33,864 nt of DNA from contig JAADCS010000001.1 of assembly GCA_013154295.1 (NCBI GenBank), positions 1-33,864 on the forward strand, written 5' to 3'. Below, piece by piece: positions 10,519-14,219 of this stretch. Numbering within the stretch: the first letter of the stretch is position 1; every line of letters begins with the position of its first letter. Position numbers and translations under genes: made by a program. The DNA comes from Thermotogae bacterium. GTDB lineage: Bacteria > Hydrothermota > Hydrothermia > LBFQ01. Below the pieces are notes generated by a model that was given only the letters and a program-made list of their open reading frames with translations, was not told the DNA's origin and ran no database searches.

Positions 10519-12279
10519 ATGGCAGAGGATAAGTTGCGTGAGGAGATACTGGGGATAGTGAGTGGTTTTTGTTCCACATCGGTCGGCGAAAAAGTAGTAT
10601 TGAGTCTAAGGCCGGATTATGAAGCGGCCAAACGGGAGTTTGGGGATATTGCCGTCGCACTCTCCGAATATGAAAATGGCATGTCTTTAAGCTTTCCCCG
10701 GATACCGGATCTTGAGGAGGTGTTCTCCTACCTTGATAAGTTTGGAAGTTTGGACGGTACCAAACTGTGGACCGTAGCGGATTTTGTGGAAGGTGTTCTT
10801 AATCTTCGCTCCAAAGTTCACTCCAACCGTCTCGCTCGATATCTACATGTCCCATCTCATCTCGTTCGTTTATCGCGTCAGATAAGGGAGAACCTCTCGC
10901 CGGAGGGTAGGATTCGTACAGACAAACATTCCACCCTAGCTCGGCTAATATCACGCAGGAACGAGGTTAGAGAAAAACTTCTCTCAACCTTCTCGGACAT
11001 AATACGCACCCACAGGGAAAAGTTACGCGAAGGTAAGCCGGTTATAAAGGGAGGAAGACTTTCGTTGGCTGTTATATCCAACTACCGTTTGGATGGAATA
11101 GTCCATGGCTTCTCCGCTACGACAGAAACCATCTTCGTTGAGCCCTACGAGGTCGTTCCTCTGCAGAATACTCTCATACAACTGGAGGACCAGATAAGGG
11201 AATACGAAGAGAGAATCCTTAGGTCCCTATCCACGAGAGTGATAAGGAGCGCCAATGTCCTAAGGAGGATATACAGCAATTTGGGAAAATTGGATAGTAT
11301 ATTTGCCCGCGCTAAATTCTCAATAGAGTACGATGCTCGGATCCCACGATTCGGTGATAGTCTTAAGCTCATAAAGGTCCGTGAGCCGATACTCTATAGG
11401 ACCAAAGGGAAGGATACGGTCCCCTTAGACCTCGATCTAAAAAACAAGGCTCTCCTCATAACTGGTCCTAACGCTGGGGGAAAAACGGTTAGCCTGCGTA
11501 CCGTAGCTTCAGCTATCCTGATGGCCTCCATGGGGATACCTGTGTTAGCGGAGGAGTCGGAGATACCCTATGGAGCTCGTGTTTTCATGCTGGGTTTCGA
11601 GGATGAAACGGATCTGCGAAGGGGCCTTTCAAGTTTCACTAGCGAGTTGGCCCATCTTAGGGAGATAGTGGCCGAAGCTGAGGAAGGAGATGTGGTGCTG
11701 TTTGATGAGGTGTTCGCCTCTACCGATCCGGACGAAGCTTCCGCTTTGGCCTACAGTACGGCCGAATATCTCTCAAAGCGTGGAACGTATGTCCTCATGA
11801 GCACTCACTTCTCAACCCTCAAAGTGCTGGCTAAAAATTCTGCTCTCTTTGAGGTTGCCACGGTGGAGGAGTATCGCTTGGTAATGGGATCGGTAGGGGA
11901 AAGTGGAGGAATAAGAACCGCACGTGCTTTTCTGCCAGCCGAGATTGTCAACCGAGCTGATGAGATTCTCCGTAGGGTACCTTCGTACATTCTCGAACTT
12001 CGCAGGGAGTACGAGGAGCAGGTGGAAAAGCTACGTAGAGAACGGAAGGAGGTGCGGGAGAGTCTAAGAAGGATACGTGCCGCTATAGGTAGAGGGGATG
12101 TAGGCCAGGTCTATGCGGAGGTTGAAAGTAGTGTGGGACGTCCCCCTATAGAAGAAGGCAAGGAATATCTGATAAAGAAGTTAGGAGTAAGAGGTAAAGT
12201 CCTTAGGATTAAGGATGAGGATGCTGTGGTTCAGGTGCGAAACTTCCAGCTGGTGGTCAAGCTGGAGGATCTTATCTAA
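10519..12279 (+). CDS. mutS2: MutS2-family ATPase lacking the Smr domain, 586 aa
   Basis: MutS2 proteins bind branched DNA or stalled, collided ribosomes and couple ATP hydrolysis to their processing. The N-terminal block VGEKVVLSLRPDYEAAKREFG and the core/clamp coiled regions are as in the family. The ATPase has Walker A GPNAGGKT (316-323), Walker B DVVLFDE (391-397) followed by VFASTDPDEASALA, and the STHFSTLK switch (428-435). A long charged helix (about 490-540) and a KOW/SH3-like segment (GKVLRIKDEDAVVQVRNFQL) end the protein. The usual ~780 aa MutS2 has a C-terminal Smr nuclease domain, completely absent here: the stop follows the KOW-like segment with no remnant downstream. tRNA-Asn follows after 42 nt. 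Confidence 0.88.
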   Translation: MAEDKLREEILGIVSGFCSTSVGEKVVLSLRPDYEAAKREFGDIAVALSEYENGMSLSFPRIPDLEEVFSYLDKFGSLDGTKLWTVADFVEGVLNLRSKVHSNRLARYLHVPSHLVRLSRQIRENLSPEGRIRTDKHSTLARLISRRNEVREKLLSTFSDIIRTHREKLREGKPVIKGGRLSLAVISNYRLDGIVHGFSATTETIFVEPYEVVPLQNTLIQLEDQIREYEERILRSLSTRVIRSANVLRRIYSNLGKLDSIFARAKFSIEYDARIPRFGDSLKLIKVREPILYRTKGKDTVPLDLDLKNKALLITGPNAGGKTVSLRTVASAILMASMGIPVLAEESEIPYGARVFMLGFEDETDLRRGLSSFTSELAHLREIVAEAEEGDVVLFDEVFASTDPDEASALAYSTAEYLSKRGTYVLMSTHFSTLKVLAKNSALFEVATVEEYRLVMGSVGESGGIRTARAFLPAEIVNRADEILRRVPSYILELRREYEEQVEKLRRERKEVRESLRRIRAAIGRGDVGQVYAEVESSVGRPPIEEGKEYLIKKLGVRGKVLRIKDEDAVVQVRNFQLVVKLEDLI

Positions 12280-12302: not shown

Positions 12303-12308
12303 TATAAT
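12303..12308 (+). promoter_or_regulatory. -10 box TATAAT of tRNA-Asn (and murI)
   Basis: TATAAT ends 13 nt before the mature tRNA 5' end, leaving room for a transcription start and a short leader. This independent non-coding gene supports TANAAT as the real -10 hexamer of this genome. Confidence 0.75.
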
Positions 12309-12321
12309 AACTTCCTCAAAC

Positions 12322-12394
12322 GGGTCCGTAGCTCAATAGGCAGAGCACCCGGCTGTTAACCGGGGGGTTGCAGGTTCGAGTCCTGCCGGGCCCG
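12322..12394 (+). tRNA. tRNA-Asn (anticodon GTT)
   Basis: A complete cloverleaf: acceptor GGGTCCG/CGGGCCC (one G-U pair), D-arm GCTC...GAGC, anticodon stem CCCGG/CCGGG with loop CTGTTAA (anticodon GTT), variable loop GGGTT, T-arm GCAGG TTCGAGT CCTGC, and discriminator G. The CCA end is not encoded. The murI start codon follows 6 nt after the tRNA 3' end, so the two are almost certainly one transcript. Confidence 0.95.
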
Positions 12395-12400
12395 TTTATT

Positions 12401-13117
12401 TTGTTCGGTTTCCTTAATTCAGGTCTTGGAGGGTTGGTCTCTTTACGTGTGTTTCGCAAGTACTCTTCGGGTCAAGTAATATACTTAGGCGACCTAAAAC
12501 ATCAACCCTACGGTGCCCGCCCCAGAAACGAGATCGTGGAATTGTCCAAGAGGGCTGTAGCTTTCCTCCTGGATATGGGGGCTGAGGAGATTTTCATAGT
12601 ATGCAATACCATAGCGGCCAATTCCTTGGGCTCGCTTCGCAGTCAGTTCCAGGTTCCCATACACGGTATCACGGAGTGGGTGAGGTTTTACACTCCCCCG
12701 AAGGATAGGAAGATCGTGGTCATAGGAACGAGGGCAACCATAGAATCAGGTTTTTACCAACGAACTCTCGGTGCCGAGGGTATAGCCGCTCCTGAACTTG
12801 CCCTCCTAATAGAGGAAGGCCATTGGCACGATGCTGTGGTAAGAGAATATTTAAACGGTCTTCTACCTAAAGGGGAATACGTCTTAGTGTTAGGATGCAC
12901 CCATTATCCGATCTTAACACCGCTTATAAAAGAATTAAGACCCTCCGTTGAGGTGATAGATCCGGCTGAAATTTTCTTCAAATACGTGCGCCGTGAGGGG
13001 GAAAATTTCTTTGCCCATATCTACCTTACGAGGGAGAACCCACGTTACCGGGACTTTTTGCTCAATCTGGGATACGACGAGAATGAGTTTTCCCTTTATT
13101 TTCTCCCTGATTATTGA
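12401..13117 (+). CDS. murI: Glutamate racemase, 238 aa, with Asp-to-Asn change in the N-terminal motif
   Basis: Produces D-glutamate for peptidoglycan. Both catalytic cysteines are present, C68 in VCNTIAANS and C166 in LGCTHYP, as well as the GDLKHQPYG substrate loop. The first motif, normally DSGxGGL, reads NSGLGGL: the conserved Asp is Asn. The ORF track start at 12368 lies inside the tRNA; TTG 12401 is the only plausible start, giving MFGFLNSGLGG. It lies 6 nt after tRNA-Asn, so tRNA 3' processing would leave an mRNA with a 6-nt leader. The 3' end overlaps the Omp85 gene by 35 nt. Slightly short (usual 255-285 aa). Aspartate racemase is less likely given the GCTHYP context. Confidence 0.85.
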   Translation: MFGFLNSGLGGLVSLRVFRKYSSGQVIYLGDLKHQPYGARPRNEIVELSKRAVAFLLDMGAEEIFIVCNTIAANSLGSLRSQFQVPIHGITEWVRFYTPPKDRKIVVIGTRATIESGFYQRTLGAEGIAAPELALLIEEGHWHDAVVREYLNGLLPKGEYVLVLGCTHYPILTPLIKELRPSVEVIDPAEIFFKYVRREGENFFAHIYLTRENPRYRDFLLNLGYDENEFSLYFLPDY

Positions 13118-14219
13118 TACGGTTGTAGTTTCCGGTAACCGATGGACCAAATCCTCTTACATTTTAAGGTACTTGAACCTACACATGGTTGATACCCTAA
13201 CGGATTCCTCCTTGATTGAGATTGAGAAAAGACTATGGCAGTTGGGTCTTTTTAGAGGTGTAAATCTGCAAGTTGTAAGGGATACTCTAAAGATCAAAGT
13301 TGAAGAGATGTGGTACATATACCCCGTACCATACCTGAGCGTTTCGACCACTGAACTGACCTACGGTCTAACCCTCCTCCACATGAACTGGAGAGGTGTG
13401 GGTGAAAACCTCTACACGACTTTAACTTTGGGGGCACGGCGTATGTTCATCTTGGGCTGGAATACGCCAAAGCACCGCCTCGTTGAAAATATCCTTTCAC
13501 TGAAGGGAGGCAGGGAGATTTATAACTCATTCTTATACTTAATGCCCATAAACAGAACCTTTTTAGCCTTTTCCTTTTCTAATCGTCTGGATGGGAGGCT
13601 ACGTTTAAAGGTCGACCTGAATCTTGAGAGGATCGGGTCTGATAGCAGTCATCTTCTTTTTGCCGGTGACGACGATGCTTTCATGAAGGTTTCCTACTCG
13701 CTATACTACGACAGCCGCGATTGGGCCAACTATCCTCGTCGGGGTTTTTACGTAAAAGGGGGAATCTCCTCCTATATGGGTGAGTTTGTTGCATGGACCT
13801 ACGGGGCGAGCGTGAGCAGTTTTTTCACATTTAAACGTCTAACCTTTAAACCTTTCCTTTCGGTGTGGCGAACTTTTGGCGATCTACCCCTTTACTTGAA
13901 ATTTCCCTTGACAGGTAGATCCGATGTCTTAAGGGAGGGACACCCCGAAGAAAGATACGTTGGAAGGAGCTTGGACGTAGCCTCGATCGAACTGAGGTAT
14001 CTTGTCTTTGAAAAGCTACCACCTCCGGTGGGGAAGTGGGTGTCAGGTGGATTAGCTACCGTTCTGTATTTGGACATGGGGCGGACCGATACCCTATCCG
14101 CCTTTATCTGTGGGTTGGGGGCCTTAAGCTATACCCCTTTTGGTACCTTCATCGCCTTGGCTGGCTATGGAACCCACGGCTTCCAATTCTTCTTCGGTGA
14201 AAGCCGAAGGATATGGTAA
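13083..14219 (+). CDS. Omp85/BamA-TamA-like outer-membrane protein with a single POTRA domain, 378 aa
   Basis: ATG 13083 gives MSFPFIFSLIIDTVVVSGN, a short hydrophobic N-terminus. It runs into one POTRA-like domain (TVVVSGNRWTKSSYILRYL ... LIEIEKRLWQLGLFRGVNLQV), followed by a beta-barrel. The barrel has Omp85 hallmarks: YDSRDWANYPRRGFYVKGG, LTFKPFLSVWRTF and an aromatic-rich C-terminus. BamA has five POTRA domains and ~750+ aa; this is a reduced form, nearer to patatin-associated or short TamA-like barrels. Likely role: inserting or exporting outer-membrane proteins. The 35-nt overlap with murI suggests coupling. It ends 5 nt from convergent fumC. The longer ORF start at 12993 would be deep within murI and adds nothing recognisable. 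Confidence 0.78.
   Translation: MSFPFIFSLIIDTVVVSGNRWTKSSYILRYLNLHMVDTLTDSSLIEIEKRLWQLGLFRGVNLQVVRDTLKIKVEEMWYIYPVPYLSVSTTELTYGLTLLHMNWRGVGENLYTTLTLGARRMFILGWNTPKHRLVENILSLKGGREIYNSFLYLMPINRTFLAFSFSNRLDGRLRLKVDLNLERIGSDSSHLLFAGDDDAFMKVSYSLYYDSRDWANYPRRGFYVKGGISSYMGEFVAWTYGASVSSFFTFKRLTFKPFLSVWRTFGDLPLYLKFPLTGRSDVLREGHPEERYVGRSLDVASIELRYLVFEKLPPPVGKWVSGGLATVLYLDMGRTDTLSAFICGLGALSYTPFGTFIALAGYGTHGFQFFFGESRRIW

Follow-up and report, generated by a model that had tools for sequence, protein, structure and literature searches.

The window analysed here, a stretch of 33,864 nucleotides, belongs to a 1.97-Mb draft genome; its congeners are assigned to candidate division WOR-3, and one of them is labelled Thermotogota. 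It contains a tRNA-Asn gene immediately followed by a murI-like glutamate racemase gene (Table 1). The Rfam boundaries of the tRNA yield a normal G73 discriminator and a 7-bp acceptor stem; the span reported by ARAGORN, 12321-12395, is one base wider on each side. An earlier note on this DNA had placed the TTG start codon of murI (12401-12403) 6 nt after the tRNA 3' end and had regarded the expected message as near-leaderless. The spacing is confirmed, the tRNA end being right within 1 nt, and the near-leaderless reading is supported; the interval between the tRNA and murI contains neither a Shine-Dalgarno (SD) sequence nor a match to a -10 box. The single promoter-like box that the note recognized lies 13 nt before the tRNA and is strictly conserved in the genus. 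A promoter scan of the locus did not find a consensus -35/-10 pair, so the tRNA-Asn promoter is assigned from the -10 box and from the conservation of that box. Further upstream, 42 nt separate the tRNA from the end of a mutS2-like gene on the same strand.

Table 1. Features at the tRNA-Asn–murI junction and its flanks (positions in the window)
Feature	Position	Strand	Evidence or remark
mutS2-like gene	10519..12279	+	PF00488 and PF20297; upstream, outside the conserved unit
-10-like box TATAAT of the tRNA-Asn gene	12303..12308	+	TATAATA from 12303, invariant in 6/6 genus members
tRNA-Asn(GUU), no encoded CCA, discriminator G12394	12322..12394	+	Rfam tRNA 71.8 bits
TTTATT, tRNA 3' trailer and presumed 6-nt mRNA leader, U's right after the discriminator	12395..12400	+	
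murI-like glutamate racemase gene, TTG start, 238 aa	12401..13117	+	TIGR00067, PDB 1b73, PF01177
Omp85/BamA-like ORF after murI, overlapping the murI end, start provisional	12993..14219	+	PF01103 just below cut-off

Comparison among species supports TTG 12401 well as the start of murI. The spacer between the tRNA and this codon is TTTATT in the window, CTTATT in four congeners and five T's in the remaining one (G005, locus L006). Alternative in-frame starts in this genome are ATT 12398 and a TTG at 12368, inside the tRNA, and the 5-nt spacing in G005 rules out both as a shared start. The shorter spacer puts murI in another frame with respect to the tRNA and has TTT in place of ATT, which leaves TTG 12401, the start given in the earlier note, as the only one common to the six species. 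Alignments of MurI begin at residue 2-3 of the TTG-initiated protein, and initiation at the next in-frame TTG (12434) was rejected because it would remove the (D/N)SGxGG motif.

The MurI protein aligns with the Aquifex structure PDB 1b73 (E 5.6e-33) and passes the Pfam superfamily PF01177 (43.1 versus a cut-off of 31), and its TIGR00067 score of 107 bits falls under the curated cut-off of 146.65. The catalytic cysteines C68 and C166, in the CNT and GCTH motifs, are invariant in five aligned species and align with those of 1b73. Residue 6 is a conserved active-site Asp in five congeners and in 1b73, but is Asn in the window protein (AAT, 12416-12418), which accordingly lacks the catalytic Asp of the F-D-S-G motif. 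The window MurI may be impaired, or the base responsible for Asn6 may be an assembly error. This genome has a single murI match, and murI was not matched in 23 of 60 related WOR-3 genomes.

The arrangement was looked for in relatives and was found in all five other sequenced species of the genus, where tRNA-Asn lies directly 5' of murI with spacings of 6, 6, 6, 6 and 5 nt. An Omp85-like gene follows murI in all congeners and also in G006, which represents a second genus of the same family; mutS2 was not matched in the congener stretches fetched around the tRNA-Asn–murI pair. In G006, murI has no tRNA before it, yet still lies 5' of the Omp85-like gene, and murI loci elsewhere in the phylum (L008-L030) have no tRNA directly upstream. 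The pair is limited to this genus and, being present in 6/6 members and absent in G006, the junction is a genus-level trait kept by descent.

Placement of a protein gene directly after a tRNA gene extends well beyond murI. Nearly every tRNA found was taken from this genome (G000) and from three family relatives (G004, G001 and G006), with stretches sampled, and subsets of tRNAs were taken from another family of the same order (G008, G009 and G010) and from other families (G018, G022, G046 and G052). Start codons often occur within 12 nt by chance, and only long open reading frames with a coding score or cross-genome homology were therefore counted. A co-directional coding sequence begins no more than 12 nt from the discriminator for 15 of 46 usable tRNAs in G000, 19 of 47 in G004, 19 of 40 in G001 and 27 of 42 in G006, and the 13-30 nt bin is nearly empty, with 0, 1, 2 and 3 starts in the same genomes. 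Among the tRNA genes of this family, which consists of uncultured WOR-3 bacteria, between one third and two thirds adjoin the start of a coding sequence. Under a uniform rule that takes the first ORF of at least 80 codons after the tRNA, junctions were found for 87 of 217 tRNAs in the order versus 2 of 66 in other WOR-3 families, a contrast that is large even though its Fisher p of 2.8e-10 overstates independence as the genomes share ancestry. Within the order, the signal peaks in the family of the window, and the second family shows it less strongly. The possibility that junctions are chance start codons is countered by the conserved, homology-supported coding start in six species and by the involvement of a third or more of the genome's tRNA genes.

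Junction genes in this genome include rpmB (2 nt from the tRNA), rpmG (3), gatC (1), murA (2), prs (2), nuoH (1), purB (5), tsaE (6), mnmA (9) and a gene for an Rrf2 regulator (2), as well as murI (6). Profile matches begin at the first few residues for L33 (rpmG), L28 (rpmB), MurA, Prs, PurB and GatC, and sequence comparison thus indicates that the junction genes are real and their starts right; the architecture is near certain. The earlier note had also suggested that the junction links tRNA maturation to peptidoglycan precursor synthesis. That part of its reading is rejected, since the roughly 15 genes found behind tRNAs are functionally mixed and the tRNA-Asn–murI pair occurs in this genus only, although its local inference was otherwise largely right. 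At least 10 tRNA–gene pairs are kept between two genera: Gln-TTG with gatC, Glu-TTC with purB, Gly-TCC with rpmB, Lys-TTT with murA, Lys-CTT with a membrane-like protein, Ser-CGA with prs, Ser-GCT with a small protein, Cys with Rrf2, Trp with rpmG, Leu-TAA with a small protein, one Met tRNA with a conserved unknown, and Thr-GGT with a pdxT-like and Asp with a dehydrogenase-like gene (both names read from sequence). Some pairs seem related in function, such as tRNA-Gln with gatC, tRNA-Cys with the IscR/CymR-like Rrf2 regulator and tRNA-Gly with the tRNA thiolase gene mnmA; tRNA-Val and nuoH have no evident functional relation.

The style of translation initiation in this genome, described as leaderless for the region in the earlier note, bears the same character on a larger scale. 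Across 310 kb of this genome, an ATG stands 7-9 nt after TATAAT in 34 cases versus about 7 expected, and no peak of SD spacing was found in the same 310 kb. Upstream of 157 long ORFs, TANAAT occurs at -17 to -6 of 62 starts versus 2 in a control window, and SD cores are at background (26 versus 28). The combination of a -10 box 7-9 nt before start codons and no SD signal suggests that leaderless translation is the ordinary mode of initiation here. CCTCC is still present at the 3' end of the 16S rRNA, and the congeners keep some SD signal (26 versus 12 of 99).

The mechanism proposed here builds on features observed directly in the DNA, namely the conserved architecture, the missing SD sequence and internal -10 box, and the leaderless signature. 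Transcription of murI would start at the tRNA-Asn promoter and yield a tRNA-mRNA transcript, from which the tRNA would be excised by RNase P and a 3' tRNA endonuclease, probably of the RNase Z type, that is activated by uridines just past the discriminator. If the cut falls after G73, the 3' product would be a murI mRNA with a 6-nt leader, which would be translated as a near-leaderless message. The same excision at other junctions would generate mRNAs with leaders of 0-11 nt, and tRNA genes would thus serve as 5' punctuation of protein genes across the order, with murI as one of many junctions. That tRNA and gene are cotranscribed, that the cut falls at G73 and that its mRNA product is translated are predictions from sequence, and the reading that tRNA cleavage frees near-leaderless mRNAs, as a bacterial counterpart of mitochondrial tRNA punctuation, is assigned a probability of about 0.7.

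Several observations bear on the steps of this mechanism. Boxes resembling -10 elements lie 5' of 154 of 179 tRNAs in the four family genomes, and no 5/6 match to TATAAT was found within 20-4 nt before 74 junction coding starts, for which the natural reading is one transcript per tRNA–gene unit. Uridine occupies position +2 at 99% of 75 junctions, compared with 84% after other tRNAs of the family and 64% outside the order; tRNAs that no gene follows are trailed by T-rich sequence as well, so the signal is not specific to junctions. The RNase Z of Bacillus subtilis is about 200-fold more active on precursors that lack CCA when a U lies no more than 2 nt from the discriminator (PMC10100781). The junctions resemble these U-activated substrates in having no encoded CCA and a U within the same distance, but B. 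subtilis normally discards the downstream product as a trailer whereas here it would be an mRNA, and the RNase Z-type enzyme is putative here. The start codon is TTG at 37 of 40 junctions with 0-2 nt spacing and ATG at 28 of 40 with 3-12 nt spacing, and such a TTG excess at the shortest distances would follow from a need for the start codon itself to provide the U. The weak point of the mechanism is the 3' endonuclease, for which there is no secure RNase Z candidate. RNase P RNA and CCA-adding-type enzymes are present, but RNase Z models had no match in G000 and G001, and a search of G004 and G006 returned only sub-threshold metallo-beta-lactamase proteins, all four genomes being incomplete drafts. 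Propionibacterium acnes has no obvious RNase Z, yet cleavages have been mapped at its tRNA 3' ends (PMC3848588), and another nuclease could therefore act here.

Adjacency of tRNA and gene could alternatively reflect plain compaction, in which ribosomes load without an SD beside the folded tRNA and translate the gene from the intact tRNA-mRNA, and processing is incidental. Translation of operon-internal genes without an SD must indeed occur here, given that SD cores are at background, but half of the junction starts (40 of 80) lie 0-2 nt from the acceptor stem, where a folded tRNA leaves no room for a ribosome, and a functional tRNA needs a 3' maturation cut at that place anyway. This explanation is unlikely. 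It is less likely still that transcription of the protein gene starts separately, within the tRNA gene, with a primary leaderless transcript and an adjacency due to compact packing. Most leaderless genes in this genome do carry a -10 box 7-9 nt upstream, but none of the 74 junction starts has one, and the tRNA sequence at that place is GC-rich and constrained. For murI itself, expression could come chiefly from a mutS2-tRNA-murI-Omp85 read-through operon in which the tRNA promoter has little weight, as the close, same-strand end of mutS2 would allow. The congeners keep the tRNA and murI together without mutS2 upstream, however, a conserved -10 box intervenes between mutS2 and the tRNA, and cleavage of the longer transcript would yield an identical murI 5' end; read-through as the main source is the least probable of the three, with very little weight.

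Release of near-leaderless mRNAs by tRNA cleavage has its closest parallel in mitochondrial tRNA punctuation (Ojala, Montoya and Attardi 1981, as cited in PMC11996679). In both, tRNAs abut open reading frames and excision would leave almost leaderless mRNAs. The bacterium described here is free-living, and most of its tRNAs have their own -10 box; only a third to two thirds of the tRNAs and a small part of the genes are involved, with at most 27 junctions per genome, and genes are punctuated at the 5' side only, by a predicted cleavage. The arrangement thus resembles mitochondrial tRNA punctuation in its working without belonging to that class, and no bacterial precedent was found in a search of an open-access library. 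The E. coli thrU-tyrU-glyT-thrT-tufB operon is a mixed tRNA-mRNA operon whose coding gene has an ordinary SD leader. Junctions in the WOR-3 family resemble it in that a tRNA and a protein gene are presumably on one transcript, but differ in their 0-11 nt spacing, lack of an SD and genome-wide scale, and none has a tufB-type leader containing an SD. In G006, a tRNA-Gln is followed at a distance of 19 nt by one tuf gene, which is preceded by the SD-like sequence aaaggagg. Actinobacterial leaderless mRNAs likewise have the start codon at or near the 5' end and a -10 box just before it (mycobacteria, PMC4633059; P. acnes, PMC3848588). Their 5' ends are made by transcription initiation, whereas those at the junctions would come from tRNA processing, and UUG, which is rare among P. 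acnes leaderless mRNAs (3%; PMC3848588), is the commonest start at junctions (45 of 80), a contrast that counts against the proposed mechanism.

If cleavage is confirmed, a free-living bacterium in which leaderless translation has become the rule can acquire punctuation of the mitochondrial style, and tRNA nucleases would become mRNA-producing enzymes. For gene finders, TTG starts that touch a tRNA can be real, and the order, set beside neighbouring families, offers a comparative system for how SD-dependence is lost. The conserved pairs might also be regulatory, with the rate or quality of tRNA 3' maturation setting mRNA release so that protein output tracks tRNA output, and UUG starts at 0-2 nt would then double as the uridine signal for the tRNA 3' nuclease; this idea is doubtful.

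A tRNA also adjoins the 3' end of the RNase P RNA with zero gap in two genomes, tRNA-Lys(CTT) in G004 (L303 1428-1929, minus strand) and tRNA-Leu(CAA) in G006 (L300 1419-1910, minus strand), and RNase P, in processing the adjoining tRNA, could also form its own RNA's 3' end. In G000 and G001, the RNase P RNA is followed by a gene with its own start and no tRNA. The reading of the T-run downstream of tRNAs as a terminator only was rejected; a pyrimidine followed by T6-8 after tRNAs without a coding sequence is terminator-like, but junction spacers are mostly shorter. Many such tRNAs in G000, G004 and G001 end in C or T plus 6-8 T's with no separate hairpin, and the tRNA may itself act as the terminator stem.
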